From NCBI RefSeq assembly GCF_003555545.1, contig NZ_CP032157.1, positions 5,398,546-5,462,545 of the forward strand: 64,000 nucleotides of DNA. Direction: 5' to 3'. Position numbers and translations under genes: made by a program. The DNA comes from Paraflavitalea soli (lineage in GTDB: Bacteria; Bacteroidota; Bacteroidia; Chitinophagales; Chitinophagaceae). The notes beneath the pieces were generated by a model. The model ran no database searches. It was not told the DNA's origin and saw only the letters and a list, made by a program, of their open reading frames with translations. Of this stretch, positions 12,681 through 55,300 are shown in pieces (the first letter of the stretch is position 1; the number at the start of each line of letters is the position of its first letter).

Positions 12681-12722
12681 GCTAACAGTTAGCAGATTAT
12701 CCCTAACTCCTGACTGCTAATA
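12681..12722 (+). repeat. Heptad array, GCTAACA type (6 units)
   Basis: Six consecutive 7-bp units in register: GCTAACA, GTTAGCA, GATTATC, CCTAACT, CCTGACT, GCTAATA. The surrounding 12618-13193 shows no gene; more degenerate GCTAA/CCTAAC words continue at about 12945-13055. Confidence 0.7.
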
Positions 12723-12944
12723 TTGGGTTTTTACAATGAACTATTGGTAGCTGCATGTCTCAGCCAAAACCTGCCCTTTATTCCCCGCTGCTGGCGGACC
12801 ACTGTCCAGTGCCTGGTGGCTGGCTCACCGAAGGCCTTTATTCATCACAGCGGCAAAATAAAAACCAGTGGCAATAGCCCTCAGCCAATAGCTACCTGCA
12901 AAAGCAGATAACGACAGCTAATGCCAAAAAGTAAATCACTAAAC

Positions 12945-13055
12945 CCAACCGCTAATAGCTACCTGACTGCTAAAGTCCAAGGCTAGTAGCTGATACCAAA
13001 ACTCAGCTGATAACCGCTAAAAGCTAAATCCTGGAACCTAACTCCTAACAGCTAA
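12945..13055 (+). repeat. Degenerate GCTAA/CCTAAC word array
   Basis: Many copies of GCTAAN, CCTAAC and CTGATA words, partly in 7-bp register (about 13021-13055). It belongs to the same family as the arrays at 12681 and 13280 but is more decayed. Confidence 0.5.
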
Positions 13056-13193
13056 CTCTACATCCTCAGTTCGTGTTGCACAACACTACCATACATCAAC
13101 CGTGCTTAGGGGCCCCGTCCACACAGTCGATCAGCATTTTTATGTATACTTCGCCTGGTCCCTCAAAAGAAACCCAACGAAGCAAAAGTTCTT

Positions 13194-13229
13194 AATCCTA
13201 ATAATCCATTCAATCCAACAAATCATGGT
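13194..13229 (+). repeat. 9-bp repeat array (4 units)
   Basis: Four units in register beginning AATCC: AATCCTAAT, AATCCATTC, AATCCAACA, AATCATGGT. It directly precedes a dispersed element ending in CGTGTATTC at 13279. Confidence 0.65.
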
Positions 13230-13279
13230 CACGAAGCAAAGCGGAGTGAAAGAGCTGCTTTCGAAGCAATCGTGTATTC
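13228..13279 (+). repeat. Dispersed GAAGCGNAG...GAAGCAANCGTGTATTC element, copy 1
   Basis: Diverged copy of the element also found at 14507-14548, 14576-14650 and 15615-15695 (core GTCAYNTCGAACGRAGCG, then GTGAGARATCTGCTATCGAA). Its 3' end GAAGCAATCGTGTATTC directly abuts the heptad array at 13280. Confidence 0.6.
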
Positions 13280-13328
13280 GCTAACAGCTAAAGGCTAAAA
13301 GCTAATACCTAACCGCTAAAAGCTAACC
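13280..13328 (+). repeat. Heptad array, GCTAAVN type (7 units), overlapping a stop codon
   Basis: GCTAACA, GCTAAAG, GCTAAAA, GCTAATA, CCTAACC, GCTAAAA, GCTAACC, all in 7-bp register, starting right after CGTGTATTC. The last two units form the final codons and the TAG stop (13316-13318) of the minus-strand gene, so the array has grown into or been captured by its 3' end. Confidence 0.85.
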
Positions 13329-13963
13329 TTTACAATCGTCAACGACTTCGCCCCATCCTGTTGCCGCAAAAAATAACGGCTCCCCACAAACTGGTAAAAC
13401 TCTATCCCCATCACCACAACGATCGGCCGCCGTGTTCTTGCAGGAAAGGAAAGTTTCAACGAAGTCGTAGTAAGCTGCTGCACATCCAGGAAACCACTTT
13501 CCTCGCTAGTCGTCAGGAATTTCATACTCCTGAAGTCCAGCACAGCTGCAGCTGCCAGTATCTTTATATGCGTAACCCGTCCCTCCCATCGCAGATCACG
13601 TACCGGATCGAAAGCAGGTATATTCAACATGCACACGCCTTTGTTACGGTTAATCGATACATCATACCGTCCGTTAAAGGTCCTGTACAGTGGTTTACGC
13701 TTATTAAAGTCAAAGCCTTCCAATAGTTTAAGATTATCTGAAGTTATCTTCCCCAATGCAGCAGGATACTGCTTATCACTCCGCAGCAGATTAAATACAC
13801 GCCAAAACAAACGACAGTCCAAATGCTGCTCCTCCAGGTTGAATAAAGGTTTGTGGAAGGCGTCGCAGATCAGTGTGCTGTATTTATGTACCCTGTCAAA
13901 ATCAGCCTGGGGTATCCTATTCTTTGTTGATTGCTTATTAGTAATTGTTGTATGTATGCGCAT
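13316..13963 (-). CDS. Unassigned Bacteroidota family, paralog 1 (divergent)
   Basis: 215 residues from ATG 13963 (MRIHTTITNK; the frame also opens at 14047, but that stretch looks non-coding). It resembles the proteins at 14776 and 15894: LLEGFDFNKRKPL corresponds to LLQGFEFNIGVPF and LLGYNFNPRVDW, and the C-terminal VVVMGIEFYQFVGSRY corresponds to LLLGVEFVKLVNGKSY and VALGIHWY. No known domain, signal peptide or membrane helix is recognised. The last codons (VSF-stop) come from the heptad array. Function unknown. Confidence 0.65.
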   Translation of the reverse strand: MRIHTTITNKQSTKNRIPQADFDRVHKYSTLICDAFHKPLFNLEEQHLDCRLFWRVFNLLRSDKQYPAALGKITSDNLKLLEGFDFNKRKPLYRTFNGRYDVSINRNKGVCMLNIPAFDPVRDLRWEGRVTHIKILAAAAVLDFRSMKFLTTSEESGFLDVQQLTTTSLKLSFPARTRRPIVVVMGIEFYQFVGSRYFLRQQDGAKSLTIVKVSF

Positions 13964-14051
13964 AATAAAAAAGCTTATTGATGATAGTAAGACATTAATG
14001 TCTATCTGTTCATCACAAACATACAACACGCAGATACCCGTTTCCAATACC

Positions 14052-14141
14052 CCATTGTATATTTCGTAATTTTTGTAAAAAATCGACGCACATTACGTCG
14101 ATTTTTTACAAAAATTACAAAATTGACATTTTATACAATGG
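14052..14141. repeat. Large inverted repeat with perfect 23-bp inner stem
   Basis: Inner arms 14066-14088 and 14096-14118 are perfectly complementary with a 7-nt loop; both arms contain GTAATTTTTGTAAAAAATCG. Outer arms CCATTGTATA (14052-14061) and TATACAATGG (14132-14141) also pair, with unequal flanks between. It lies just upstream of paralog 1. It could be a promoter dyad, a MITE-like remnant or a hairpin RNA. Confidence 0.75.
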
Positions 14142-14271
14142 CACATTTGGAAATCGCCTGTCCGTCATCGTATGTTTGTTGTGCAGTGTTACTGAAAGAA
14201 GAAATTAAAGACAAGCACGAAGAAGAAAAAAGCAAAATAAACGACAAAAAGAAAAGTAGAACCAACCGTCT

Positions 14272-14315
14272 CTTCAGTATGCCTTCAGTATAGCTTCAGT
14301 ATACCTTCAGTATGG
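14272..14315 (+). repeat. 11-bp tandem repeat (4 units), CTTCAGTATNN
   Basis: CTTCAGTATGC, CTTCAGTATAG, CTTCAGTATAC and CTTCAGTATGG in exact 11-bp register. The rest of 14142-14506 has no recognised gene; a short dyad ATGCTAATAGCAT follows. Confidence 0.85.
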
Positions 14316-14506
14316 ATAGAGTATGCTAATAGCATCAAACACAAAAACAGCCCTTTTTTGCATAAAGTGGTAGGGAAGCTGGCGCCTCCCACCCAAAGCA
14401 ACAACGGATGTATATAGGTTGTACCGCGGGCAACCGCCTCAAACAGTTCTTTGGAAAAGCAGTCGATGCAGACGGATCATGATTGTCGATTAACGTCTCT
14501 TCCTAT

Positions 14507-14548
14507 TTGTCATTTCGACCGTAGGGAGAAATCTGTTATCGAAGCAAG
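14507..14548 (+). repeat. Dispersed TTTGTCATTTCGA element, copy 2
   Basis: Reads TTTGTCATTTCGACCGTAGG, then GAGAAATCTGTTATCGAAGC. Shorter form of the element at 14576-14650 and 15615-15695. Confidence 0.65.
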
Positions 14549-14575
14549 CGTATCTCATTAACGTTTCTCCCTTCT

Positions 14576-14650
14576 TTGTCATCTCGAACGAAGCGAAGCG
14601 CAGTGAGAGATCTGCTATCGAAGCAAACGTTTCGAAACAACCGTGTATTC
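14576..14650 (+). repeat. Dispersed TTGTCATCTCGA element, copy 3, ending in CGTGTATTC
   Basis: Starts TTGTCATCTCGAACGAAGCG, continues through GTGAGAGATCTGCTATCGAA and ends in CCGTGTATTC (14641-14650). A heptad array follows directly. Confidence 0.65.
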
Positions 14651-14738
14651 ATTGCCGATTGCCGGCTGCCGATTCACGAAGTCATCGAAGCAACCGTGTA
14701 TTCGCTCGCAGCTCGTAGCTCACGGCTCGCCGCTTTCT
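14651..14738 (+). repeat. Two heptad arrays (GCCGATT type and GCTCGNA type)
   Basis: The first array is ATTGCCG, ATTGCCG, GCTGCCG, ATTCACG (14651-14678), right after CGTGTATTC at 14642-14650. A second CGTGTATTC (14695-14703) is directly followed by GCTCGCA, GCTCGTA, GCTCACG, GCTCGCC, GCTTTCT (14704-14738). Unit length is constant while unit sequence changes. Confidence 0.8.
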
Positions 14739-14775
14739 TCCAAAGAACATTCATTCATTTTTAAACAACAAACAA

Positions 14776-15534
14776 ATGCCAAAGCAAATAAGCCCCATCG
14801 TCAAGCTCAAAGGAGCCATCGACGATATCAGCTTTTACAAAACCCAGGATGGGTTCATGGCCCGGCAGAAGACAGCCATCTCTGCCGATCGCATCAAGAC
14901 CGATCCCAAATTCGACCTCCTTCGCAGGGCTGGTCAGGAATTTGGCACAGGCGGCAAAGCCGGAAAATTGTTCCGCGATATATGGAACACCGAGCTCAAC
15001 AAAGCCCGTGACAACCGCGTCACCAGCAGGGTTACACAGGCCATGGTAGCCGTATTGCAATCCGATCCCACCAGCGATCTAGGCTTGCGGCGCGTGGAAA
15101 ATGGCGACCTCACCTTGCTACAGGGATTTGAGTTCAACATCGGTGTGCCTTTTGCCGCCTGTGTCAAGACCCAGTTCCCGCATACCATCGACCGCGTATC
15201 CGGTCAGGTCAGGGTCAACCTCGTGTCCCATATCCCCAGGCTGGAGATTGCACCCCCCGACAATGCGACCCATTACAGCATCTTTGCCGCCGCCGCAGCA
15301 ATAGATTTTGCAACTGGTGAGTATTCCATCACAAGGCAAAGCAGTGCCAGCCTGCCCTGGGACAATGATCCCACCGTGGCCTCCGTGCTGCAGATGGCTG
15401 TGCTGCCCGCTACAACCCTTCCCATCTTCCTCCTGTTGGGAGTCGAGTTTGTGAAGCTCGTAAACGGTAAGTCCTATCCACTCAGTAAGGGCCTCAGTTC
15501 CCTGCAGGTCTGGGCAGTCGATCAACTGCCTTAA
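14776..15534 (+). CDS. Unassigned Bacteroidota family, paralog 2 (best preserved)
   Basis: 252 residues. N-terminal segment IVKLKGAIDDISFYKTQDGF followed by ADRIKTDPKFDLLRRAGQEF, then LLQGFEFNIGVPF in the middle, and a C-terminal LLLGVEFVKLVNGKSYPLSK. The soluble, beta-rich look and the opening pattern (short glycine turn, SFYK, ARQK) resemble other multi-copy Bacteroidota proteins such as the DUF6266 group, but identity with that family is not claimed. No signal peptide. It is followed after 6 bp by a strong hairpin terminator. Function unknown. Confidence 0.75.
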   Translation: MPKQISPIVKLKGAIDDISFYKTQDGFMARQKTAISADRIKTDPKFDLLRRAGQEFGTGGKAGKLFRDIWNTELNKARDNRVTSRVTQAMVAVLQSDPTSDLGLRRVENGDLTLLQGFEFNIGVPFAACVKTQFPHTIDRVSGQVRVNLVSHIPRLEIAPPDNATHYSIFAAAAAIDFATGEYSITRQSSASLPWDNDPTVASVLQMAVLPATTLPIFLLLGVEFVKLVNGKSYPLSKGLSSLQVWAVDQLP

Positions 15535-15540
15535 CCCATC

Positions 15541-15580
15541 AAAGGGTGGGTCGCCCTTTCCGGGCGGCTCACCCTTTTTT
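15541..15580 (+). terminator. Terminator built from a REP-like hairpin (GGGTGGGTCGCCC / GGGCGGCTCACCC)
   Basis: Arms 15541-15556 and 15562-15577, loop TTTCC, then a run of seven T. The two mismatches in DNA are G-U pairs in RNA. The same hairpin family recurs at 25857-25889, 32191-32240 and 62483-62518. Confidence 0.85.
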
Positions 15581-15758
15581 TCATTTCCAACGGAGTGAAC
15601 TCTCCCTCTTTTGTTCATTCGAACGGAGTGAACACTCCCTCCTTTGTCATTTCGAACGGAGCGCAGCGGAGTGAGAAATCTGCTATCGAAGCAAAACTTG
15701 TCCCGCTCTGCGGGACGCCTCGAAGCACAACTTGTCCCGCTCCGCGGGGCGTGTATTC
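15581..15758 (+). repeat. Nest of ~34-bp tandem repeats and dispersed element copy 4
   Basis: Three related ~33-34 bp blocks with CAACGGAGTGAAC/GAACGGAGYGMA cores start at 15581, 15615 and 15648. The third is a full dispersed element (GTGAGAAATCTGCTATCGAA). Then a 34-bp block is duplicated at 15687-15720 and 15721-15754, each with a CCCGCTCYGCGGG hairpin. The nest ends in CGTGTATTC (15750-15758). Confidence 0.75.
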
Positions 15759-15879
15759 ATTCCCGATTGCCGACTGCCGACTGCCGACTGCCGACTGCCG
15801 AAGCAAACGTGTATTCTTCTGTATTCTGTATTCTGTATTCTGTATTCTGTATTCTAAATTCTAAATTCTGTATTCTCTA
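15759..15879 (+). repeat. Two heptad arrays (GCCGACT x5 and TTCTGTA x9)
   Basis: The first array runs ATTCCCG, ATTGCCG, ACTGCCG repeated (15759-15800). A further CGTGTATTC (15808-15816) is directly followed by nine units: TTCTGTA x5, TTCTAAA x2, TTCTGTA, TTCTCTA (15817-15879). The array ends 14 bp before the next gene. Confidence 0.9.
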
Positions 15880-15893
15880 CAAAAACAAAAACT

Positions 15894-16622
15894 ATGCTAT
15901 ACAAAAACAAAATATCCCGCACCGCCATTCCCGGCTACTCCCTCATCCCCAAAGACGACCACTACCAGGTAAAAAAGATCACCCTTACCGCCGAACGCGT
16001 AAAGACAGATCCGGCCTTTCACCGTACCCGTATATGTGCCGGCGACTTTGCCAAAGCGGCCCGCCTCGGCAGGCGCATTCGTAATGCCTTGTTGCTGCAC
16101 TCCAGCATCAAAACCACTGCGCCCTTGCTGGCAGGAAGATTACATATTGCCCTCCGTACCAGCCCATCGGCTGACCCCGACTTCAGCACCGCCTGTTTCG
16201 ACAACCTCCTTGGCTACAACTTCAATCCCCGCGTCGATTGGCAGCAATGCACCACCATCCAACCCGATGTGGTAGCCAATATTCATAAGAACTGGATCAC
16301 TACCAGGCTGCCCGCCTTCATACCTACAGAGCAGTTGATACCGCCCGGGGGCATTACCCATTGCCGCATCTTTACCACCGTGGTTGCCATCAATTGCAAA
16401 GAGAAAGAGGAAGCCGAGATCATAACAAAGACCACCACCCTCATCCCCATTAAACAAATGCACATAAAACCCAGGCACCTCACTGCGGAACTAACCCACA
16501 TGAAAGGCCGCCTCATCATCGTAGCTCTTGGTATCCACTGGTACGGCCCTGCGGGCTATAAAGGCGCCATGATCAGGAAGCCCCCCGGCCCCCTGACGAT
16601 CATTTATATCCGGCACCAGTAA
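15894..16622 (+). CDS. Unassigned Bacteroidota family, paralog 3
   Basis: 242 residues. ITLTAERVKTDPAFHRTR aligns with TAISADRIKTDPKFDLLR of the protein at 14776, LLGYNFNPRVDW with LLQGFEFNIGVPF, and the C-terminal IIVALGIHWYGPAGYKGAMI with its LLLGVEFVKLVNGKSYPLS. Sequence identity to paralog 2 is modest, so the duplication is old or the genes arrived separately. The start is only 14 bp after the TTCTGTA array, so the array may lie in the 5' leader. Function unknown. Confidence 0.72.
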   Translation: MLYKNKISRTAIPGYSLIPKDDHYQVKKITLTAERVKTDPAFHRTRICAGDFAKAARLGRRIRNALLLHSSIKTTAPLLAGRLHIALRTSPSADPDFSTACFDNLLGYNFNPRVDWQQCTTIQPDVVANIHKNWITTRLPAFIPTEQLIPPGGITHCRIFTTVVAINCKEKEEAEIITKTTTLIPIKQMHIKPRHLTAELTHMKGRLIIVALGIHWYGPAGYKGAMIRKPPGPLTIIYIRHQ

Positions 16623-16973
16623 ATATTTATAATTTGTTTTATGGAAAAAATTAGCCGCTACATCTCATTAGTATAGCCTTTGTGAATAGATCTCTCACCA
16701 TTAAGTACCACTGATTCTTTTTACAATGATCGCCCCCATCGATCATAGTTAGTTCTACATTACCCAACCAGGTAGTGCTACATACACCTTATCCCCGGCT
16801 ATTTTTTTGTTAACAAGGTGATAAAACTAAAGCTATGCCATCTATCTATGGCGAGGCTGGCCCATGACACACGGACCACCTTGCTCACCACACACGCCGT
16901 TAGCAACAACGCCATTGCAAGCGTACTTCGCATTTAACATTTACAATATATTAACACTAAAAATAAATCCACT

Positions 16974-17179
16974 ATGGGAAGCTCCCGAGAATTTAGGATA
17001 ATCGAAAACAAGCATGTACAGAGCTTAATGACAGTGTCCCCGCGCACAGCAACCCGCTCCTTGCAAGACACCAGGGATGAATTCGATAAACCTTCCGGGT
17101 TCCCGGTTTACCTGCCGAGTTCTGTAAACATATGAAGCTCGACATAGACAAGGTCTGTAAGTTCTTTAATTGGGATTAA
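16974..17179 (+). pseudogene. Small frameshifted gene, unassigned
   Basis: ATG 16974 opens MGSSREFRIIENKHVQSLMT, then VSPRTATRSLQDTRDEF and PVYLPSS before a stop at 17133. In another frame the same region continues AEFCKHMKLDIDKVCKFFNW up to a TAA at 17177. The smooth join at about 17115-17120 suggests one 65-70 residue protein broken by a frameshift. The MTVSPRTATRSLQD part looks like a helix-turn-helix, possibly excisionase-like, but no family is assigned. The rest of 16623-17315 shows nothing recognisable. Confidence 0.45.
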
Positions 17180-17315
17180 AAACTATCCCGAAACCATAAA
17201 AAAAATAACTTATGAACAACATTAAAATCAACTGCTGGAATTCGTTCAGCTACTTCAACGAAGATGGCTGACCAAATACCGAAAACGCAATGAGTCAAAT
17301 AATTTGATCAGTCAA

Positions 17316-17360
17316 CCTTACAAAAAACCGGCGGCCCCTCACTCCCGCCGGATTGTAAGG
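17316..17360. terminator. Two-part hairpin, terminator-like
   Basis: CCTTACA (17316-17322) and CCGGCGG (17328-17334) pair with CCGCCGG (17345-17351) and TGTAAGG (17354-17360). It lies downstream of the small frameshifted gene and upstream of the efflux operon. Confidence 0.55.
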
Positions 17361-17597
17361 CTTTGTAGGGCTGATGAAGATCCATCAGTGCCCCCAATGG
17401 CCATTTGGCAAACGGCATCCACATGCCCGACAATTTGAGGAGCAGGCCCATCTTATCTGGCAGCATACCCCATACCACATTAGGATTCCATTAGAATTGG
17501 AGGCCGTCCCTGCTGTTTCCCCTGCTTTTTTGAAAAGTAATTGTTATTACACCGCCGGCAGGCTGTCAGAGCCGGCATTTTCTGTAATTTTAGTCCC

Positions 17598-17981
17598 ATG
17601 CGAAGAACCCATTCCCCACATTCCCGGCTATTGAAAGCATTCCTGCTGGGCGTGTACCTGGTATTCTTCGCCGTTCAGCTGCATTTCCGGTATGCCTTTT
17701 TTTCTTTTTTTCCTTCCACCGCACACCAGCCCGTGCTGCACCAAACCGTGCAGGTGCAACAGCAGCAGTCACCCGGTCACCAGCAAATACAGGTGGCAGC
17801 ACCACAGGTAAAGCTCAACAAGCGCTACCAGCCCCAAAGCGTATTTGAAGGACTCCCTGCCCTGGAAGTTCCCAAAGAAACCTATACCGCTGTCGAACAG
17901 CACAGGACGGTGATAGTGGCCCCCTTGCACAGCACCATTATTCTCCACGTCTTTCAGCGTGGCCCTCCCCGCAATAGCTGA
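17598..17981 (+). CDS. Small secreted or membrane-anchored protein ahead of efflux operon
   Basis: 127 residues from ATG 17598 (MRRTHSPHSRLLKAFLLGVY); the frame opens at 17541, but that extra stretch has no signal-like character. A hydrophobic segment at about residues 11-38 is followed by a Gln-rich stretch (VQVQQQQSPGHQQIQVAAPQ) and a short polar C-terminus. It lies 119 bp before the TolC gene of the efflux operon on the same strand. The position resembles that of small metal-responsive proteins in such operons, but no metal-binding motif is seen. Function unknown. Confidence 0.6.
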   Translation: MRRTHSPHSRLLKAFLLGVYLVFFAVQLHFRYAFFSFFPSTAHQPVLHQTVQVQQQQSPGHQQIQVAAPQVKLNKRYQPQSVFEGLPALEVPKETYTAVEQHRTVIVAPLHSTIILHVFQRGPPRNS

Positions 17982-19489: not shown

Positions 19490-19498
19490 TTCAGCCCT

Positions 19499-25742: not shown

Positions 25743-25780
25743 GAAAGAGATGTCAGGCTGAGCTTGTCGAAGCCGTTTGT

Positions 25781-25889
25781 AGGGTGAGCCGCCCTTGTCA
25801 GGGTGAGTCGCCTTTGTCAGGGTGGGTCGCCCTTGTCAGGGTGGGTTCCCCTTGTCAGGGTGGGTCGCCCTCCAAGGGCGGCTCACCCT
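25781..25889 (+). repeat. 19-bp tandem repeat (4-5 units) ending in a hairpin
   Basis: AGGGTGRGYCGCCCTTGTC-type units start at 25781, 25800, 25819 and 25838. A fifth unit at 25857 is followed at 25875-25889 by the inverted arm AGGGCGGCTCACCCT, making the REP-like hairpin. A separate word GTCAGGCTGAGCTTGTCGAA lies just before (25752-25771). It sits between convergent genes and probably terminates both. Confidence 0.85.
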
Positions 25890-35999: not shown

Positions 36000-36611
36000 A
36001 TGGAAGAAAAGAAACTGTCCGGAGAAGAAAGTCTGCTGCTGATCCGGCAAATGATACAGGTGGCCAAAGATGAGCACCGGGAGAAAGGTGATGGCTGGCT
36101 CATCTGGGGATGGCTGCTGTTTGTGGCCTCCGTTGCCTCTGCTGTGATGAGTTATGTCAAACTGGGCAGGTATGTGGGTTGGGTATGGCTGGGCATGCTG
36201 GCAGTTGGGTTGATCGTGTATGCCATCGGGCACCTGCTGCACCAACGCAAGGAAAAAGTACAAACCTATGTACAGGAATTGCTCAATAAGATCGAGCGTG
36301 GGTTCTTTATTAGTTTGTTTACCATTGTAGCCTCCGTCTACATCAGCAACAGTAATTTCAATTTCGGTTATTTCTATATTCTGTATGCATTCTGGATGTT
36401 CATTCATGGCAGTGCCATCCGCTTCAGGCCATTGATCATTGGCGCCTGGGTCAACTGGGCTGCCGCCATTGCCATTTTCCTGATCAAAGATTTTCAATAT
36501 GATATGATGATCTCTGCGTTGGCTGTGCTGGTAGGGTACCTCATTCCCGGTTATATGTTGCGGGCTGAGTTCAGGAAAAAGAGCTTGTCATCAGATCGAA
36601 TCATTGCCTAA
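36000..36611 (+). CDS. Multi-pass membrane protein, paralog B
   Basis: 203 residues, related to the protein encoded at 35395 (LSGEESLLLIRQMIQVAKDE, then WLIWGWLLFVASVASAV and later FYILYAFWMFIHGSAIRFRP). It overlaps the winged-helix gene by 1 bp (the last A of TAA is the first of ATG), so their translation is coupled. Function unknown. Confidence 0.75.
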   Translation: MEEKKLSGEESLLLIRQMIQVAKDEHREKGDGWLIWGWLLFVASVASAVMSYVKLGRYVGWVWLGMLAVGLIVYAIGHLLHQRKEKVQTYVQELLNKIERGFFISLFTIVASVYISNSNFNFGYFYILYAFWMFIHGSAIRFRPLIIGAWVNWAAAIAIFLIKDFQYDMMISALAVLVGYLIPGYMLRAEFRKKSLSSDRIIA

Positions 36612-36904
36612 TGGAATTTAAAGAATTAGATCCTATACTTCATTCCCAGCTCCGGCTGGCTGTTGTTTCACTCCTGATCAGTGTGAAGGAAGCAGAATTT
36701 ACTTTTATCAAAGAGAAGACCAATGCTACCGCAGGCAACCTCAGTGTGCAGATCAATAAGCTAAAAGAAGCCGGCTATATAGAGGTCATCAAACAATTCA
36801 AGGACAACTACCCCCAAACCACCTGCAAAATAACACCCCTCGGCGTAAAGGCTTTTGAAGAATACGTACAGAATTTACAATCTTACTTAGGCGTGAAGAA
36901 GTAG
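36611..36904 (+). CDS. Small winged-helix transcriptional regulator
   Basis: 97 residues, a lone winged helix (LRLAVVSLLISVKEAEFTFI; KTNATAGNLSVQINKLKEAG is the recognition helix region) of the MarR/PadR-like HTH_34 type. It is coupled to the two membrane proteins upstream and probably controls their operon. The heptad array begins 6 bp after the stop. Confidence 0.88.
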   Translation: MEFKELDPILHSQLRLAVVSLLISVKEAEFTFIKEKTNATAGNLSVQINKLKEAGYIEVIKQFKDNYPQTTCKITPLGVKAFEEYVQNLQSYLGVKK

Positions 36905-36909
36905 CGAGT

Positions 36910-36951
36910 CGGCAGTCGGCAGTCGTAAATCGGCAGTCGTAAATCGGCAAC
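36910..36951 (+). repeat. Heptad array, CGGCAGT/CGTAAAT type (6 units)
   Basis: CGGCAGT, CGGCAGT, CGTAAAT, CGGCAGT, CGTAAAT, CGGCAAC in exact 7-bp register. CGTGTATTC follows at 36964-36972. Confidence 0.9.
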
Positions 36952-37090: not shown

Positions 37091-37167
37091 TTCTATACTT
37101 CCGCCTTCTATATGCTGAATTCTGACTCCTGTATTCTTTATTCTACATTCTGTATTCTCTCCTGTAT
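37091..37167 (+). repeat. Heptad array, ATTCTNN type (about 11 units, partly degenerate)
   Basis: Units in 7-bp register from 37091; the cleanest are ATTCTGA, CTCCTGT, ATTCTTT, ATTCTAC, ATTCTGT, ATTCTCT, CCTGTAT (37119-37167). Related to the TTCTGTA array at 15817. Confidence 0.7.
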
Positions 37168-45510: not shown

Positions 45511-46440
45511 ATGAAACGTCGACAATTTATGCGTAATTCCCTGTTCACCGGCGCCTCCCTGGCCACCTCTGCTGTAGCACTTGGTATGTCGGATGAAAAG
45601 GGAGATACCCTAACGAATGCTGAAAAAACATTTAACCTTGATTATGCCTTTCATGATGGCATGTTTAAGAACAGCGGGGGTGCTGACTTTATTGATCAGA
45701 TAAAATTTGCCCATAGCATGGGCTTCCGGTCTATCGAAGACAATGGCATGATGGGCCGGCCTGTAGAGATGCAAAAGAAGATCGGCGATACCCTGGCATC
45801 ACTCGGCATGCGCATGGGTGTTTTTGTTATTACCTCCGATAACTGGCATTGGAAAACCTCACTCGCTTCGGGCAAGCAGGAATGGATCGATAGAATGATC
45901 AAAGATTGTAAGGAAGCCGTGGAAGTAGCCAAACGCTGTGGCGCCAAATGGATGACGGTAGTACCGGGCAATTATGAAAGAAGCCTTTCCTTCGAATACC
46001 AGACTGCCAATGTGATCAGCGCCTTGCGCAAGGCCAGCGCCATCCTCGAGCCCCATGGCCTGGTAATGGTACTGGAAGCCCTGAGCGATAACCCCGACCT
46101 GTTCCTGCGCCATTCCGATCAAACCTATATGATCTGTCAGGCCGTGGGCAGCCCCAGTTGTAAGTTCCTCTTCGATATGTACCATATGCAGCGCAATGAA
46201 GGGGATATTATTAACAACCTCAACAGGTCCTGGGATGAGATCGGGTATATACAGATCGGTGACAACCCCGGCCGTAAAGAGCCTACTACGGGAGAAATGA
46301 ACTACAAGAACATCTTCAAGCATATTCATGGCAAGGGCTACAAAGGCATCCTGGGCATGGAGCACGGCAATTCGAAGCCGGGCAAAGAGGGAGAAGTGGC
46401 CCTGATCAAGGCGTACCGGGATTCTGATAGTTTCCTGTAG
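45511..46440 (+). CDS. TIM-barrel sugar isomerase/epimerase (hydroxypyruvate isomerase-like), Tat signal
   Basis: 309 residues. N-terminal MKRRQFMRNSLFTGASLATS fits a twin-arginine signal. The TIM-barrel domain (AP endonuclease 2 family) has FDMYHMQRNEGDI and HIHGKGYKGILGMEHG, with metal-binding Glu/His/Asp residues. It lies divergent to the FGE/oxidoreductase pair, so the three may serve one periplasmic sugar pathway. The substrate is unknown. Confidence 0.9.
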   Translation: MKRRQFMRNSLFTGASLATSAVALGMSDEKGDTLTNAEKTFNLDYAFHDGMFKNSGGADFIDQIKFAHSMGFRSIEDNGMMGRPVEMQKKIGDTLASLGMRMGVFVITSDNWHWKTSLASGKQEWIDRMIKDCKEAVEVAKRCGAKWMTVVPGNYERSLSFEYQTANVISALRKASAILEPHGLVMVLEALSDNPDLFLRHSDQTYMICQAVGSPSCKFLFDMYHMQRNEGDIINNLNRSWDEIGYIQIGDNPGRKEPTTGEMNYKNIFKHIHGKGYKGILGMEHGNSKPGKEGEVALIKAYRDSDSFL

Positions 46441-46575
46441 AGGGTTGACAGTTTGATTGGTTAACAGGTTGATAAGGGGGATGATCCGCCTTTATCAACC
46501 TGTTGTCTTTTTACCTTCACCAGTTTTCAATCCTTATTAACTTTTCAACCTGTCAACTTATCAACCTATCCTTAA
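46441..46575. repeat. 8-bp word array TCAACCTG/TCAACTTA and its inverse
   Basis: After the isomerase stop, GTTGACAG, GTTTGATTGG, AACAGGTTGATAAG and then TTATCAACCTG alternate; towards 46545 the words TCAACCTG, TCAACTTA, TCAACCTA follow in 8-bp steps. The two halves are inverted copies (GGTTGATAAG against TTATCAACC, 46477-46499), so it may also fold into a hairpin. Confidence 0.65.
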
Positions 46576-46586: not shown

Positions 46587-47291
46587 ATGCACACTTTTAT
46601 TAAAGCATTGTCCATCCTCAGTATTTGCCTCCTTTCCGCACTGTATTGTACAAGCCAGGAAGCGGATGCACTGATCAAAAAAGTAAAAGACAAACTGGCC
46701 ACGGTGAAAGATTACCAGGCCGACGGGATCATGAAAACCGATGTGTCTTTTATGAAGATCCCGGAATCCAAAGTGGTGATCTATTACAAGAACCCCGATA
46801 AATTCAAGATCAAAAAGCAGGATGGCATTGCCATTGTACCCAAGGGGGGCGCCAATGTAAACCTGGGTGGTCTATTTGCCAACGATAATTATACTGCTGT
46901 GCCGGCCGGCAATGGCAAAGTAGCAGGTACCGATACACGTATTGTAAAACTATTGCCGCTCGATGAAAAGAGTGATATCGTAGTGGCCACGCTGTACATC
47001 GATGAGAAGCAATCACTGGTGCGCAAAGCCATTATGACCACCAGGAGCAATGGCACCTATGAAATGGAAATGAGTTATGGGCAGTTTGCCAACTGGGGAT
47101 TGCCCGACAAAGTAGTATTCAGCTTCAATACCAAAGATTATAAACTACCCAAAGGACTGGCATTCGATTATGATACCGGCGAAAAACCAGCAGCAGCTGC
47201 TGCCCCCGGGAAAGACCAGAAGGGGAAATTAGAAATTACCTACACCAACTATACGGTTAATAAAGGCATTGCGGATAGCTTCTTTAAGTAG
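46587..47291 (+). CDS. LolA-like outer-membrane lipoprotein carrier family protein
   Basis: 234 residues from ATG 46587 (the frame opens at 46503 inside the repeats). Signal peptide (IKALSILSICLLSALYCTSQ), then a LolA-fold beta sheet with DYQADGIMKTDVSFMKIPES and AIMTTRSNGTYEMEMSYGQF. LolA proteins carry lipoproteins or other acyl molecules through the periplasm. It is a divergent member rather than the main LolA. It ends 5 bp from the convergent pdxA stop. Confidence 0.75.
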   Translation: MHTFIKALSILSICLLSALYCTSQEADALIKKVKDKLATVKDYQADGIMKTDVSFMKIPESKVVIYYKNPDKFKIKKQDGIAIVPKGGANVNLGGLFANDNYTAVPAGNGKVAGTDTRIVKLLPLDEKSDIVVATLYIDEKQSLVRKAIMTTRSNGTYEMEMSYGQFANWGLPDKVVFSFNTKDYKLPKGLAFDYDTGEKPAAAAAPGKDQKGKLEITYTNYTVNKGIADSFFK

Positions 47292-49222: not shown

Positions 49223-49259
49223 GAAATTGACAGCGTGACAAGGACCAAGAGGAATTACT

Positions 49260-49308
49260 GCCGATTGCCGATTCACGACTGCCGATTGCCGATTGCCGAC
49301 TCACAACG
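49260..49308 (+). repeat. Heptad array, GCCGATT type (7 units), overlapping a stop codon
   Basis: GCCGATT, GCCGATT, CACGACT, GCCGATT, GCCGATT, GCCGACT, CACAACG in 7-bp register. The TGA stop of the minus-strand GNAT gene (49301-49303) lies within it. Confidence 0.9.
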
Positions 49309-50314: not shown

Positions 50315-51562
50315 ATGCATTTAAAACGCGTTGTTGTAACAGGTATTGGCGCATTAACTCCTATTGGTAACAGCTTGCAAGAATATTGGAATGGCCTGAT
50401 TGGTGGCGTATCCGGTGCAGACTTCATTACATTATTTGATGCGTCGAAATTCAAAACCCGCTTTGCCTGTGAGCTAAAGGGGTTTGATCCGTTACAATAC
50501 CTCGATAAAAAGGAAGCCCGGAAGCTTGACCGTTTCACCCAGATAGCCCTTGGTTCCAGCGATCAGGCGGTAGCCGATTCCGGCATAGGTGGTGGAGCGG
50601 TAAATCCTGATCGTGTAGGGGTCGTTTTCGCCAGTGGTATCGGTGGTCTCATCACCTTTCAGGAAGAAGTGATCAACTTCGCCAAGGGTGATGGTACTCC
50701 CCGGTTCAATCCTTTCTTCATTCCCAAGATGATCCTGGACATAGCAGCGGGTCATATCTCCATGCGACACGGTTTCAGAGGTCCCAACTTTGCCGTGGTA
50801 AGCGCCTGCGCCTCTTCTACTAATGCTATTATGGAAGCTTTTAACCTGATACGCCTCAACAAAGCCGACGTTGTACTGACTGGCGGTTCTGAAGCGGTGA
50901 TCAGCGAAGCCGGCGTTGGTGGATTCAATGCCATGAAGGCGATGAGTGAGCGCAATGACGATCCCAAAACAGCCAGCCGCCCTTACGACAAAGACCGCGA
51001 TGGTTTTATTATGGGTGAGGCATCTGGTGCTATCATTCTCGAAGACCTGGAGCATGCCCTTGCACGCGGCGCCAAGATCTACTGTGAAATTGCCGGCGCC
51101 GGTGCTACAGCCGATGCACACCACGTAACAGCTCCCCATCCGGAAGGACTGGGCGCTAAAAATGTGATGTTATCTGCCCTTGATGATGCCGGTATGAAAC
51201 CCGAAGACATTGACTACATCAATACCCACGGCACCTCTACCCCACTGGGTGATATTGCCGAGGTAAAGGCGATTACCGATGTTTTTGGGGAACACGCATT
51301 CAATATCAATATCAGTTCTACCAAATCCATGACCGGTCACTGCCTGGGTGCAGCCGGGGTGATAGAAGCCATAGCCTGTATCATGGCTGTTCAGCATGAT
51401 ATGGTTCCTCCTACGATCAACCACTTCACAGACGATCCCGAATTAGATCCACGTCTCAATTTCACCTTTGAAAAACCGCAAAAAAGAGTTGTGCGGGCTG
51501 CCCTAAGTAACACATTTGGCTTTGGCGGGCACAATGCCTGCGTAATCGTAAAGAAGTACTAA
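50315..51562 (+). CDS. fabF: Beta-ketoacyl-ACP synthase II
   Basis: 415 residues. Active-site Cys in VSACASSTNAI (about 163-173), first His in NTHGTSTPLGD (about 304), second His in KSMTGHCLGAAG (about 341), and NTFGFGGHNAC at the C-terminus. It elongates acyl-ACP in fatty-acid synthesis. It follows acpP and precedes rnc on the same strand. Confidence 0.97.
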   Translation: MHLKRVVVTGIGALTPIGNSLQEYWNGLIGGVSGADFITLFDASKFKTRFACELKGFDPLQYLDKKEARKLDRFTQIALGSSDQAVADSGIGGGAVNPDRVGVVFASGIGGLITFQEEVINFAKGDGTPRFNPFFIPKMILDIAAGHISMRHGFRGPNFAVVSACASSTNAIMEAFNLIRLNKADVVLTGGSEAVISEAGVGGFNAMKAMSERNDDPKTASRPYDKDRDGFIMGEASGAIILEDLEHALARGAKIYCEIAGAGATADAHHVTAPHPEGLGAKNVMLSALDDAGMKPEDIDYINTHGTSTPLGDIAEVKAITDVFGEHAFNINISSTKSMTGHCLGAAGVIEAIACIMAVQHDMVPPTINHFTDDPELDPRLNFTFEKPQKRVVRAALSNTFGFGGHNACVIVKKY

Positions 51563-51673
51563 AAAGCACGCTGCATAATTTTTCACTAACCTTGTTCGTT
51601 GTTTGGTATCTTAGTACCAAAGCATAAGCCCTATACCTATATTGATTTTTTGGCTTAATGAAAAAATTGTAGC

Positions 51674-52414
51674 TTGACTATCGTGGGAATCCTGGACCGA
51701 TTTATTGGCAAGGGAAGCAATCTTGCTTTCAAGAAGAATCTTCGAAATGTGCTGGGTTTTGTACCCGGCAAAACTGCTTTGTACCAGGCCGCATTGACGC
51801 ATCGCTCTGTTCGTGACAGTGCCGATGAGAACAATGAGCGGCTTGAATACCTGGGGGATGCCATCCTGAGCGGCATTGTAGCCGATTTCCTGTTCAAGAA
51901 ATATCCCTATAAAGAAGAAGGCTTTCTCACGGAGATGCGGAGTAAGATGGTAAACCGCAATAAGCTCAATGAAATTGCCATCAAGATGGGCCTGAAGAAG
52001 ATCACCTTCTACAATAAGTTTGACAATTCCCTTAAGATGAGCCAGATCTTCGGCAATACGCTGGAAGCGGTGGTAGGCGCCATCTACCTCGACAAGGGAT
52101 TTGTAAAGACCAAGAAATGGGTGCTGGAATGCATCATCATCCCCCACCTCTACATGGAGGACCTGGAAGCACTGGAGATCAACCACAAGAATAAATTATA
52201 CGGCTGGGCCAATAAGAATGGCAAGAACCTCGAATTTGAAACCCTCGATGAACGCATCGAAGGCGGCCGCCGACTCTTCACCATCGGCGCGGTAGTTGAT
52301 GGCGCCCTGCTGGCCGAAGGCAAAGCCTACAATAAAAAAGACGCCAGCCAGATCGCCGCTGCGATCGCCATCGACAAACTGGGGTTGAATAAAGTGGAAG
52401 GAGAAGAAGAATAA
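51674..52414 (+). CDS. rnc: Ribonuclease III
   Basis: About 246 residues. Signature NERLEYLGDAILSGIVADFL (metal-binding Glu/Asp), second acidic motif GNTLEAVVGAIYLDKG, and a C-terminal double-stranded RNA-binding domain (about 175-240). There is no ATG in a suitable place: TTG 51674 (MTIVGILDRF) and GTG 51683 are the candidates. It cleaves dsRNA in rRNA processing and mRNA turnover. The position behind acpP-fabF is conserved in Bacteroidota. Confidence 0.96.
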   Translation: MTIVGILDRFIGKGSNLAFKKNLRNVLGFVPGKTALYQAALTHRSVRDSADENNERLEYLGDAILSGIVADFLFKKYPYKEEGFLTEMRSKMVNRNKLNEIAIKMGLKKITFYNKFDNSLKMSQIFGNTLEAVVGAIYLDKGFVKTKKWVLECIIIPHLYMEDLEALEINHKNKLYGWANKNGKNLEFETLDERIEGGRRLFTIGAVVDGALLAEGKAYNKKDASQIAAAIAIDKLGLNKVEGEEE

Positions 52415-52417
52415 GAA

Positions 52418-52452
52418 TTAGCTTTTAGCGGTTAGCAGTTAGCCTTTAGCAC
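52418..52452 (+). repeat. Heptad array, TTAGCNN type (5 units)
   Basis: TTAGCTT, TTAGCGG, TTAGCAG, TTAGCCT, TTAGCAC in 7-bp register, starting 3 bp after the rnc stop and reaching to 18 bp before the stop of the convergent gene. It is the reverse complement type of the GCTAA arrays at 12.7-13.3 kb. Confidence 0.9.
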
Positions 52453-52469
52453 CTACTCTTCGCCTCAAC

Positions 52470-53642
52470 TCACTTTGCATACGTTACTCTGTAAATTGCT
52501 CCCTGTTTATCATCACTGATCAGTAAAGCTCCATCGGCAGCTACTTCCACATCCACCGGACGACCGATCACGTCTTTTTCATCTGTCCCCGGCAGCCAGC
52601 CTGTAGCAAAAGGCTCAAACTTCACGGCTTTGTTTCCTTCGAGGGTGACCATCATTACCCGGTAACCAGCCGGTATCTTCCTGTTCCAGCTTCCGTGCTG
52701 GGCAATGAATATCCGGTTCTTGTATTCAGCGGGAAACATGCTGCCGGTATAAAAGCGCATGCCCAGCGCCGCCACATGCGGGCCCATTTTCTGAACAGGC
52801 GGCGTATAGTCGGCGCAGTTTTTCCCTTTGCCAAACTCAGGATCCAGGATATCACCCTGGTGACAGTAAGGGAAGCCGAAATGCATATCTTTTTTGGGTG
52901 CTACATTGAGTTCATCTTCCGGCACATCCTCACCCAGGTTATCACGGCCATTCTCAGTAAACCAAAGTTCTTTGGTATCGGGATGCCAGGCAAAACCCAC
53001 GGTATTGCGAATGCCTTTGGCAAAGATCTCCATACCCGTACCATCGGGGTTCATGCGGGTAATGGAAGCAAATACAGGGTCTTTCTCTTCACATACGTTA
53101 CAGGGTGCGCCCACGGGTATATAGAGTTTGCCATCAGGCCCAAAAGCAATGAACTTCCAGCCATGGTGGGCCTTGTCGGGATATTTATCATACACTACTA
53201 CAGGAGCGGGCGGATTGGAGAGCCGGTTTTCAATGCTATCGAACCGCAGTATGCGGCTCATCTCAGCCACATACAGACTTCCATTGCGAAAGGCCACGCC
53301 ATTGGGCATGGTAAGACCGGTTGCAATGGTGTACACGCTATCGGCCTTGCCATTTTTATCGGTATCAGTAACAGCATATACATTTTTATCGTCCTTATTG
53401 CCTACAAATAATACTCCGTTGCTGCCCCGGCAAAGGCTGCGTGCATTGGGTACAACGGCATATATGGAAATGTGGAAACCTGGCGGCAATTTGATCTTAT
53501 CCAACTGGTATTTGGTAAATAAAGAATCCTGCCCGGCAGGTGTGTCCGGCACATTGGGTTTGGGGGCGGGTTCGCATGCCAGCAAGAGCAGGGCGGGCAG
53601 TGCAGCCCATGCCCAGGTTTTGATCAGTTGGGATGACAGCAT
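52470..53642 (-). CDS. PQQ-dependent glucose/sorbosone dehydrogenase-like lipoprotein
   Basis: 390 residues from ATG 53642 (the frame opens at 53717; MHYLIRLL at 53693 is another candidate). Lipoprotein signal with LLLLACEP. A six-bladed beta-propeller follows (LPPGFHISIYAVVPNARSLC; HWNPDTKE-like WHPDTKELWFTENGRDNLGE; HGSWNRKIPAGYRVMMVTL). It oxidises sugars or other polyols in the periplasm, with PQQ as cofactor in known relatives; PQQ biosynthesis is not seen here. Confidence 0.88.
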   Translation of the reverse strand: MLSSQLIKTWAWAALPALLLLACEPAPKPNVPDTPAGQDSLFTKYQLDKIKLPPGFHISIYAVVPNARSLCRGSNGVLFVGNKDDKNVYAVTDTDKNGKADSVYTIATGLTMPNGVAFRNGSLYVAEMSRILRFDSIENRLSNPPAPVVVYDKYPDKAHHGWKFIAFGPDGKLYIPVGAPCNVCEEKDPVFASITRMNPDGTGMEIFAKGIRNTVGFAWHPDTKELWFTENGRDNLGEDVPEDELNVAPKKDMHFGFPYCHQGDILDPEFGKGKNCADYTPPVQKMGPHVAALGMRFYTGSMFPAEYKNRIFIAQHGSWNRKIPAGYRVMMVTLEGNKAVKFEPFATGWLPGTDEKDVIGRPVDVEVAADGALLISDDKQGAIYRVTYAK

Positions 53643-53894
53643 AGCAAAAGGTTTTTGAGATGTTACGAATAGTAGGCGGATAAGGTAATGCATTGGTGAG
53701 GACTCCTGCAATTCCAAAGCCAGCTCTTTTTAATGCCCCTTTAATAAAAATAGTTGCTTTCCGCTAATCCCTTGATTATGTGGTTTTCGTAAGTATCTCA
53801 AAGTCTCACCGGTAATCTGCCGGCTGGGATGTGCTTGCGTTAAGGAAGCCTTAGTAAGGATTCCTCATTAGATCATCACTCAAACTGTGCAACT

Positions 53895-54485
53895 ATGGAG
53901 AGCTTAGAAACAAACGTCAAGGGGTATGATTATGGTAAAACAGCCAAACCCTCGCCCATTACTTTGAAGGAGCTGGAATTGCTGAAGGCCACGGTATTGT
54001 TTTCACCGACCGATGAAGAGAACCTGCGCAAGGCCGGAGGGGTACTGATAGAGCAGGCAGATGCTATCATGGACATCTGGTATGAACTGATCGGCAGTCA
54101 TCCGCACCTGCTAATTTATTTTAGTAAGAATAATATGGCAAATCTGGAATATCTTACAGCCGTTCGGAAACGTTTTATACAATGGGTAAAAGACGTTTGC
54201 CTGCGGCCTTTTGATCAAGCCTGGCTGAATTATCAGCACGAGATTGCCCTGCGTCATCACAGTATTAAAAAGAACAAGACTGATGAAATAGAGGCTGCCC
54301 CTATTGTCCATTATCGCTATATTATCGCATTCATATATCCTATTACCGCTACCATCAAGCCACTGCTGGCCAATAAAGGGCATGCTCCGGAAGAAGTGGA
54401 AGCTATGCACCAGGCCTGGTTCAAGGCCATCGTACTCACGGTTACATTGTTGGCGTATCCTTATGTCCGTACCGGGGAATTTTAA
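53895..54485 (+). CDS. Protoglobin-domain protein
   Basis: 196 residues. All-helical haem-binding protoglobin fold. Candidate proximal His is H115 in LNYQHEIALRHHS, with aromatic residues around (IDWYELIGS-like IMDIWYELIG and YRYIIAFIYPI). Protoglobins bind O2, CO or NO and act as gas sensors. There is no attached signalling domain. It precedes the Cys-cluster MarR by 38 bp on the same strand, suggesting a joint redox or gas-response unit (inference). Confidence 0.85.
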   Translation: MESLETNVKGYDYGKTAKPSPITLKELELLKATVLFSPTDEENLRKAGGVLIEQADAIMDIWYELIGSHPHLLIYFSKNNMANLEYLTAVRKRFIQWVKDVCLRPFDQAWLNYQHEIALRHHSIKKNKTDEIEAAPIVHYRYIIAFIYPITATIKPLLANKGHAPEEVEAMHQAWFKAIVLTVTLLAYPYVRTGEF

Positions 54486-54523
54486 CCGGTTACCCGTCAA
54501 AAACCGGCTACACCTTATCGCTT

Positions 54524-55147
54524 ATGTCGTCATTTAACCCTGAACAGCATCTGATTAACAGCAACAGTAAGATCACCGCCTCCCTGGGAAAGATCTCGGA
54601 AGCATTCCGTGTATTGACCCAGGCCCAGGCGCAAAGTCATGGACTGAGCTCCACGCAGCTGCAGTTACTGCTCTTCATCAGGTTCCACCCCGATCCTCAA
54701 CATCGTAAGGCGGCCAATATGGCCAGGGAATTCAATGTGACCAAGGCCACGATCTCCGATTCTATAAAAGCGCTTGAACAAAAGGCATTGGTACAACGAC
54801 TCACGGATGCGAAGGACTCCCGCAGTTTTATTCTTTCATTGACGCCCAAAGGAGAGGAACTGGCGCTGGCCACTGAAAATTATACAGGCCCGATGGATGA
54901 AGCCGTGAATGGTTTGTTGCCGGAGCAGAAAGGTCATCTGATCCATGCCCTGTTTGACCTGATCTATCGCCTCAACCAGGCAGGTGTGGTATCTACGCAG
55001 CGCATGTGTTTTAATTGTAGTTACTATAGCGGCAACAGGAGGGATCAACATTATTGTAACCTCGTCAATGTAGCATTATTCGCAGATGACCTGAGGTTGG
55101 AGTGTGCGGAGTTTACGAAGAAGAAAGCTGCGAGCCACGAGCTGTGA
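54524..55147 (+). CDS. MarR-family regulator with C-terminal four-cysteine cluster
   Basis: 207 residues: a MarR winged helix (about 35-150; MAREFNVTKATISDSIKALE is the recognition helix) and a C-terminal tail with C162-x2-C165-x12-C178-x15-C194 (RMCFNCSYYSGNRRDQHYCN). The four Cys could hold zinc or an iron-sulfur cluster and sense redox state or NO. It follows the protoglobin gene. The final residues AASHEL and the TGA stop are built from the heptad array at 55127. Confidence 0.88.
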   Translation: MSSFNPEQHLINSNSKITASLGKISEAFRVLTQAQAQSHGLSSTQLQLLLFIRFHPDPQHRKAANMAREFNVTKATISDSIKALEQKALVQRLTDAKDSRSFILSLTPKGEELALATENYTGPMDEAVNGLLPEQKGHLIHALFDLIYRLNQAGVVSTQRMCFNCSYYSGNRRDQHYCNLVNVALFADDLRLECAEFTKKKAASHEL

Positions 55148-55161
55148 GCTGCGAGCAAATA
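55127..55161 (+). repeat. Heptad array, GCTGCGA type (5 units), inside a coding end
   Basis: GCTGCGA, GCCACGA, GCTGTGA, GCTGCGA, GCAAATA in 7-bp register. The second half of the first unit to the third unit encode the last residues and the stop (55145-55147) of the MarR gene. Confidence 0.88.
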
Positions 55162-55272
55162 CATTTTACGCAGCAAAGATGCGAGCCTTCTTCCAATGCC
55201 AGCTATACTTTCCTGAACTTAAAAAAAGCTTCGAGGCACAAGCTGAGACCCGCAACTGCTGCCGCGAATAAA

Positions 55273-55300
55273 AGCTCGAAGCTCACCGCTCGTAGCTATT
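55273..55300 (+). repeat. Heptad array, GCTCGAA type (4 units)
   Basis: GCTCGAA, GCTCACC, GCTCGTA, GCTATTT in 7-bp register, ending 2 bp before the stop of the convergent gene. Same unit type as at 14704-14738. Confidence 0.85.

Follow-up and report, generated by a model that had tools for sequence, protein, structure and literature searches.

Heptad arrays between genes of Paraflavitalea soli as probable ends of small elements that carry PF05635 genes

Why should the spaces between the genes of a bacterium be occupied by tandem arrays whose units hold to a length of 7 bp while their sequences vary? The question is raised by a stretch of 64,000 nucleotides (hereafter, the window), positions 5398546-5462545 of the 8.44 Mb single-contig genome of Paraflavitalea soli (Bacteroidota, Chitinophagaceae), in which a preliminary description, made from the sequence alone, listed twelve intergenic arrays of 7-bp units. 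The answer that we consider probable is that these heptad arrays, along with similar arrays of 8-bp units (octads), are inverted ends, or ends left behind, of small elements of the S23 or intervening sequence (IVS) type that lie between genes and enclose a gene for a four-helix-bundle protein of the family PF05635. These elements share one architecture, recur in several phyla with different units, occur in filled, empty and solo states and, in one orthologous case, differ in their unit between species.

Four genes of the P. soli genome encode members of PF05635 (four-helix bundle/S23/IVP) above the Pfam cut-off; three of them, when rescanned, scored 116-126 bits vs the cut-off of 33.8, and TIGR02436 was matched in the two that were scanned with it. 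The solved relatives of the four-helix protein are 2GSC and 2RLD. Each of the four lies between two inverted heptad arrays, and the class of the arrays differs from pair to pair. A 529-bp stretch of locus L165 that passed for intergenic, with inverted arrays at both ends, turned out to enclose a four-helix-bundle gene missed by the gene finder, and its counterpart in the congener G003 likewise encloses such a gene. In the cases examined in this genome, a full element occupies the intergenic space wholly or for the most part: at L271 and L273, the left array starts at the stop codon of the upstream gene and the right array stops a few bases short of the next start codon, and at L272 the next gene lies on the opposite strand and its stop codon adjoins the right array. 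The four copies, as well as the annotated plasmid copies discussed below, lie between protein genes, not inside a 23S rRNA gene. When the genome was sampled (the window plus 100 stretches of 20 kb, 2.06 Mb after removal of overlap, or 24% of the genome), the four classes that flank PF05635 genes made up 97 of the 146 arrays found, 3 of the 97 themselves bordering a PF05635 gene. Thus, the suggestion of the preliminary description that no single spreading element is involved does not hold: each class recurs at many loci, and four classes are the inverted ends of four PF05635 genes.

Does this arrangement extend beyond one genome? A PF05635 match (E<=0.001) was detected in 157 of 198 sampled Bacteroidota genomes, in 153 of them above the cut-off, and in none of 14 control genomes; within the family, 45 of the 60 sampled genomes have one, with up to 16 copies. 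We scanned 40 PF05635 loci, namely the 4 of P. soli, 20 from other genera of Chitinophagaceae and 16 from plasmids (14 cyanobacterial, one of Azospirillum and one of Gemmatirosa). The family loci, one each from 20 of the 44 other family genomes with hits, were taken from the upper part of the list before the flanks were seen, and are not the strict top 20, given that G097, G107 and G075 were skipped and that G037 is represented by a hit free of internal stops; the plasmid loci are 16 of 35 records, after exclusion of near-duplicates and mostly short or weak matches, and several of the 16 are close homologues. Arrays of 7- or 8-bp units were present on both sides of the gene in 30 of the 40 loci (4/4 in P. 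soli, 12/20 in the family, 14/16 on plasmids), on one side in 7 and on neither in 3 (L281, L286 and L293). Under the identical test, control genes of 250-700 bp from Chitinophagaceae had arrays on both sides in 2/428, 5/440 and 3/168 cases (10/1036 in total; Fisher p=3e-41); the sole plasmid background consists of two unrelated 40-kb stretches of Nostoc plasmids, which contained four period-7 arrays. The G-rich strand points inward in 74 of the 81 arrays of PF05635 loci (p=3e-15), including 7 of 9 in P. soli. In the 23 loci L271-L293, there are 28 arrays of period 7, five of period 8, multiples with periods 14 and 16, one of period 17, and none at any other period from 2 to 20. The 16 plasmid loci contain 34 arrays of period 7 and seven of period 8, multiples with periods 14 and 16, and, at periods 3, 6, 9, 15 and 18, respectively, 2, 3, 2, 3 and 1. 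The mean duplex energy was -61 for the arms of the same locus vs -43 for swapped arms (39 of the 40 loci; L281, at a contig end, was dropped).

The units vary among these loci (for example, AAGTTTT, AGGTGTC, GGAGTTA, GGATGTT, AGTCAGA, AGTAGGG and ACAGGTG), and some of them recur. The TTAGCNN unit, found in the window at 52416-52452 and common in this genome in the absence of a resident PF05635 gene of that class, flanks PF05635 genes in Pseudanabaena and Calothrix (L300, L301), so that either transfer or convergence would account for its being shared by a Bacteroidota genome and cyanobacteria. Short tandemly repeated repetitive (STRR) sequences were defined in heterocystous cyanobacteria. The comparison of the P. 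soli arrays with them, made at the outset, has proved apt: the gene is accompanied by 7- or 8-bp arrays at all 16 plasmid PF05635 loci, including all 14 cyanobacterial ones. As a separate observation, some of the cyanobacterial PF05635 genes lie with their arrays inside operons or between related genes, that is, between cas10 and cmr3, between cas6 and cas4 (twice), and between the beta and alpha subunit genes of ribonucleotide reductase (L299, L300, L303 and L302).

The predominance of the 7-bp period is a general property of the genome and of its relatives. The 2.06 Mb sample contains 60 strict arrays of period 7, of which 52 are noncoding, three of period 8, one each of periods 3, 6 and 9, none at the remaining periods among 1-10, and 22 of period 11. 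In 80 loci centred on ksgA from Chitinophagaceae and near relatives (1.39 Mb; the closest named relative being Paraflavitalea sp. CAU 1676, with 87% KsgA identity), there are 27 arrays of period 7 with 22 different canonical heptamers, three of period 8, four of period 11 and none at other periods among 1-10. The constancy of length with free sequence, claimed from the window, is therefore borne out in the genome and the family, and so is the expected excess at lag 7 (60 arrays vs 0-3 for each other period from 1 to 10). Other periods are seen alongside. The 22 strict period-11 arrays are all noncoding and are not the ends of scanned PF05635 loci; in four species, period-11 arrays occupy one orthologous intergenic region (window 57791-57845; L250 near 6600; L228 near 5880-5926; L237 19911-19971) and share the period while differing in their units (AGTAAACNNGA, AGTTTAGCATA, ACAGAGAACNT and CTCTGTAGGTG). 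Two octad families, AAGTCCGG and AACAAGGC, occur in P. soli, often near gene ends (L134, L136, L137, L149, L162, L184, L187 and others), and similar octads flank PF05635 genes in other genera (L292, L276).

Most of the arrays in the genome fall into about five classes, read on one strand as GAATACA, GCTNCGA, CGGCART, TTAGCNN and GGATNTA, and these are oriented: regardless of gene strand, an array at the left border of an intergenic region shows the class form, and one at the right border shows the reverse complement of that form. Among 97 classified arrays (19 genic or edge arrays and 30 unclassified ones of the 146 having been set aside beforehand), 39 + 41 agree with this rule and 8 + 9 disagree (p=8e-11), with the reading direction of each class named after inspection of the array list; the bias is weak between divergent genes (10/16). 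A test by GC skew, which requires no class naming and drops 19 genic arrays and 6 ties, found the G-rich strand directed inward from the gene edge in 96 of 121 genome arrays (p=5e-11) and in 44 of 64 arrays of the family loci (p=0.004). At array-free edges, the stop side is unbiased (291 vs 292) and the start side is biased (531 vs 234); therefore, the stop-side figures, 52 of 65 arrays in this genome, are the safer ones. The inward direction of the G-rich strand also led us to consider telomere-like healing of breaks, an idea that was dropped after PF05635 genes had been found within array pairs.

Comparison with four congeners, which was made at about 80% identity and in which solo arrays and fragments were read by eye, reveals filled, empty and solo sites. 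At site 1 (L271), the element is present in G003; in G004, the site consists of TAA, 10 bp and ATG, there is no element before the gene in G002, and in G001 the gene is missing and a single solo array, of the right-hand class, is present. At site 2 (L272), the gene of P. soli is absent from all four congeners, and G001 retains fragments of the array class. At site 3 (L273), the element is found in G001 and G003 and not in G002 and G004. The site 3 gene is orthologous by position, with 76.3% and 71.9% protein identity to the P. soli copy and 88.9% between G001 and G003, and the arms are GGATGTA/GGATTTC in P. soli vs GGGTTTN/GAGTTTC, on both sides, in G001 and G003, so that the unit differs between species and the period of 7 is kept. 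Identity between the left arm and the right arm of the same element is 75.8% in P. soli, 83.9% in G001 and 71.0% in G003; on the simplest view of this one case, with its mixed arm identities, both arms changed together.

The arrays of the window turn over as well. The syntenic locus L057 lacks an array at three of the window's array sites; G004 is apparently the same assembly, so that the two are not independent. In G003, other repeats stand in the matching spot at four window sites: inverted 8-bp units after ksgA and rnc and a sequence of the 18-bp family after the HTH_34 gene (seen by eye and unflagged by the 21/16 lag scan), and a 7-bp palindrome after the MarR gene, which the lag scan flagged; at this last site, it also flagged 8-bp units in G002. 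No array was flagged by the lag scan at the remaining sites in the species read, and G002 and G004 had no period-7 array in 200 kb each.

Several observations weigh against the view that the arrays are ends of PF05635 elements. No transposase or recombinase was identified, the open reading frame (ORF) between the arms being PF05635 in the loci read, and no obvious target duplication was seen by eye, in a comparison for which congeners at about 80% identity are too distant to be a fair test. Classes that have no PF05635 gene in this genome account for 49 of the 146 arrays (15 TTAGC and 34 other), 17 of the 97 classified arrays break the orientation rule, and the inward G-rich bias is absent from the small congener sample (10/18). 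The arms of the same locus beat swapped arms at the 5% level in only 20 of 39 loci. At site 3, the left arm of G003 matches the right arm of P. soli (74.2%) as well as its own (71.0%), and a short stretch resembling ATTCGAAACCCG is present in G002 and G004, which do not carry the element. When inverted partners were sought within the same region (regions longer than 500 bp excluded; 114 arrays kept and 113 scored), only 23 of 113 arrays had a strong one, vs 8 in direct orientation; over all arrays, the own partner had no advantage over partners taken from other regions (Wilcoxon p=0.18), but did have one over the direct orientation (p=0.005). Strong pairing is a property of a minority of the arrays. 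Furthermore, the inner flanks are mostly unique, being repeated elsewhere for 21 of 121 arrays, compared to 9 of 121 for outer flanks and 75 of 898 for the control; on these figures, we rejected the idea that the array terminates a larger dispersed repeat.

So could the arrays be explained in some other way? Replication slippage with a preferred 7-nt step, a polymerase footprint, would make heptamer repeats from any sequence, the proximity of PF05635 genes being incidental. The dominance of period 7 with many units and the homogeneity of the ACTGCCG arrays (n=13) are as slippage predicts, and both the heptamer excess and the footprint idea have been published (Mrazek 2007, as cited in PMC4692102). 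We nonetheless consider this account unlikely, given the fixed orientation of the arrays relative to gene edges, the occurrence of arrays on both sides of 30/40 PF05635 genes vs 10/1036 controls, and the structure of the GCTC arrays (units chosen by the GCTC pattern), of which 35 of 50 have exactly four units and in which adjacent units are less alike than units three apart; the GCTA and ATTC patterns are intermediate in neighbour likeness. Because of the orientation, the unit pattern and the bracketing of PF05635 genes, independent slippage at each locus was rejected as the sole cause. The length-fixing copying mechanism favoured by the preliminary description, if it is taken as plain slippage, fits the GCTC class badly and the homogeneous ACTGCCG arrays better. 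Sharing of unit order between arrays is modest: pairs that share at least 3 units make up 2.9% for GCTC vs 1.2% after shuffling (maximum 1.9%), and for the other three patterns the same measure does not exceed the shuffled maximum.

Alternatively, the arrays could be regulatory or structural sites of the host (a binding array, a terminator or a 3' processing signal) that PF05635 elements use as insertion targets. This is compatible with the close adjacency of stop-side arrays to the stop codon, 49 of 70 lying within -17 to +10 of the end of the called gene, and with the correlated repeat occupancy of 147 orthologous intergenic pairs (12/20/5/110, p=5e-6; periods 7, 8, 11 and 18 are pooled, one region is counted up to four times, and the pairs are not all independent). 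The correlation, however, also fits shared old insertions, so that some of the insertions would be old and shared; the gene-free sites in G004 and G002 have no heptad array; units differ between species at one site; and separate hairpins, recognized by eye, stand beside some of the arrays. We therefore hold host sites to be improbable as the origin of the arrays, and the notion of the array as a transcription terminator in particular is weakened by the separate hairpin in some regions. A third scenario, that of ordinary transposons akin to miniature inverted-repeat transposable elements, with multi-site ends bound by a DDE-type transposase in trans, would account for the inverted ends and the many gene-less copies. 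It appears highly improbable to us because the gene between the arms is PF05635 rather than a transposase and the interiors are mostly unique; no target duplication was observed either, among relatives too distant for a fair test.

Returning to the window, Tandem Repeats Finder (TRF; minimum score 30) reports period-7 arrays at ten of the twelve places originally named. The exceptions are 12681, where the sequence GCTAACAGTTAGC is largely a palindrome, and 55273, with about three degenerate units inverted relative to those at 55126; extra weak arrays were reported at 5339 and 13037. A strict lag scan (24-base window, at least 20 matches, lags 2-30) found three places with lag 7, one with lag 11 and one with lag 19; everything else was a multiple, and nothing appeared at lags 2-6 and 8-10. 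The units, originally taken to be unrelated, are indeed diverse across the genome and the family, but those of the window reduce to about four classes (GCTAACA, GCTCGCA, GCCGACT/GCCGATT and TTCTGTA), and are therefore fewer than the original listing implied, since GCTGCGA and CGGCAGT are the reverse complements of the GCTCGCA and GCCGACT classes, respectively.

On the strand on which each class reads inward from the gene edge, the arrays of the window are as follows. An array of the GCTAACA (= TTAGCNN) class (13280-13326, minus strand), assigned by TRF and the class and orientation analysis, reaches almost to the stop codon of the gene at 13316-13963 (minus). Upstream of the gene at 14776 are arrays of the ATTGCCG (14651-14674, minus) and GCTCGCA (14704-14734, minus) classes, and two more, found by both TRF and the strict lag scan, belong to the CCGACTG (15763-15801, minus) and TTCTGTA (15817-15876, minus) classes, the latter ending shortly before the start codon at 15894. 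One convergent intergenic region holds a CGGCAGT array (36907-36949, plus; by TRF, 36907-36939, and to 36949 as a 14-mer) directly after the stop codon of the HTH_34 gene (36611-36904, Pfam) and, in the right arm position, a TTCTGTA array (37106-37158, minus). A TGCCGAT array (49257-49304, minus; TRF bounds 49259-49299) lies between ksgA (plus) and a GNAT gene (minus) and is absent from the congeners G001, G002 and G004. A TTAGCNN array (52425-52451, plus), found by TRF and compared with the congeners, directly follows the stop codon of the RNase III gene (Pfam). Finally, a GCTGCGA array (55126-55156, plus) overlaps the stop codon (55147) of an ORF called and assigned by Pfam to the MarR family, and its short degenerate inverted partner (GCTCGAA GCTCACC GCTCGTA; 55273-55297, minus) was read from the sequence, with no TRF report. 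Between the gene that ends at 46440 and the gene that starts at 46587, there is a period-8/16 repeat pair (46443-46570, no strand assigned; GGTTAACAGGTTGATT and CTTATCAA; TRF 46443-46473 with period 16 and 46533-46570 with period 8) whose members seem, by eye, to be mutually inverted and which looks like an octad version of the inverted heptad arrangement. The window contains no Rfam match at gathering thresholds and no tRNA. Two other repeats were noted in passing. A dispersed module, TTTGCTTCGATAGCAGATTTCTCAC...GTTCGAAATGACA, at 15574-15710 and at many loci, lies on the inner side of some heptad arrays; as a general companion of the arrays, TTTGCTTCGATAGCAGATTTCTCAC was rejected, being found with some and not as a rule. 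Repeats of period 18/19 of the AAAGGGTGGGTCGCCCTT type occur between genes at window 25777-25871 and in L134, L139, L170 and L174.

How do these elements relate to known systems? With the IVS of 23S rRNA that carry an S23/IVP ORF, they share the protein family PF05635 and inverted ends. In Coxiella, where the S23 element is cut from 23S rRNA by RNase III, tandem heptamers have been described upstream of the ORF, in a number that depends on the strain (PMC4990558). The elements considered here differ in that they lie between genes rather than inside 23S rRNA, in having arrays on both sides of the gene, and in the many stand-alone arrays of one genome. At most, the PF05635 elements work like IVS, and we do not class them as such; the S23/IVP ORF is present in the full elements and not in the stand-alone arrays of the window. 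The likeness to STRRs and to the GGGNATC repeats lies in 7-bp tandem units between genes (PMC4692102), and the arrays are STRR-like repeats of a Bacteroidota genome in the sense that they are tandem heptanucleotide repeats between genes at many loci; this likeness concerns unit length and location, and, unlike here, no link to a gene or element is made in the published accounts considered (PMC4692102). Direct repeats of the heptamer TAACTGA, too, lie between genes near starts and stops, with a patchy distribution in Beggiatoaceae, cyanobacteria and Bacteroidetes, the same phyla as here, and differ in that they have been explained by translational control (PMC4679880). Heptanucleotide elements have also been published for Geobacter (PMC2700814). 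Among cas loci, 18 genes of 23S_rRNA_IVP, one of them between cmr2 and cmr3, were listed as having a CRISPR-associated function (PMC3936711); here, the order is cas10-PF05635-cmr3 and cas6-PF05635-cas4, all with 7/8-bp arrays, which suggest inserted elements. A link of heptamer arrays with PF05635 genes outside 23S rRNA was not found in titles and the starts of abstracts, in a search whose reach left aside most subscription papers and all preprints.

A possibility with regard to mechanism is suggested by Avd, the partner of the reverse transcriptases of diversity-generating retroelements, to which PF05635 proteins have been reported to bear a resemblance (PMC10053308). The PF05635 proteins weakly match the bAvd and DivGenRetAVD models, below the curated cut-offs (23.9 and 20.8 bits vs 40, and 26.1 vs 80, respectively), and differ from Avd in that the stretches read show neither a template/variable repeat nor a reverse transcriptase nearby. 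The P. soli genome holds two RVT_1 genes, one of which, at L175 6578-7816, we take to resemble a group II intron maturase. Given the Avd resemblance, these two genes and the heptamers of the Coxiella IVS, an RNA-level life cycle, if less likely than not, is the first mechanism to consider.

A full element consists of an array with its G-rich strand inward, a short spacer, the PF05635 gene and a like array inverted. Such elements are probably mobile, and stand-alone arrays would arise from gene loss or as gene-less copies. The 7-bp register would be dictated by the activity that recognizes the arms or copies them, for which the Avd-like four-helix protein, together with a partner enzyme, is the most likely candidate, and pairing or mutual copying would keep the two arms alike. 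Much more tentatively, we propose a cross-phylum class of tiny mobile elements, their ends fixed in period (7 bp, sometimes 8) and free in unit sequence, that might move through an RNA step by means of the Avd-like protein and a reverse transcriptase supplied in trans. Under this scenario, pairing of the heptad arms would allow the element to be excised from host transcripts in the fashion of an IVS, and this excision would make insertion beside stop codons or inside operons nearly silent; copying of the arms from one another would let units drift while the register is kept; and STRRs, TAACTGA and other heptamer repeats would be the remains of such elements.

The heptamer repeats of cyanobacteria, Xanthomonas, Beggiatoaceae and Geobacter have so far been explained separately, by G-quadruplexes, translational control, regulator sites or slippage, and the PF05635 proteins are common and have no assigned function. 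Should the heptamers prove to be ends of PF05635 elements, the two puzzles would merge into a single testable question, namely, which activity moves or maintains an element whose ends hold to a 7-bp register rather than to a sequence. This origin may then account for the heptamer repeats reported in several bacterial groups, the PF05635 genes inside cas and ribonucleotide reductase loci would likely be insertions, and inverted 7- or 8-bp arrays around a 'four helix bundle protein' would provide a cheap rule for the annotation of such elements.

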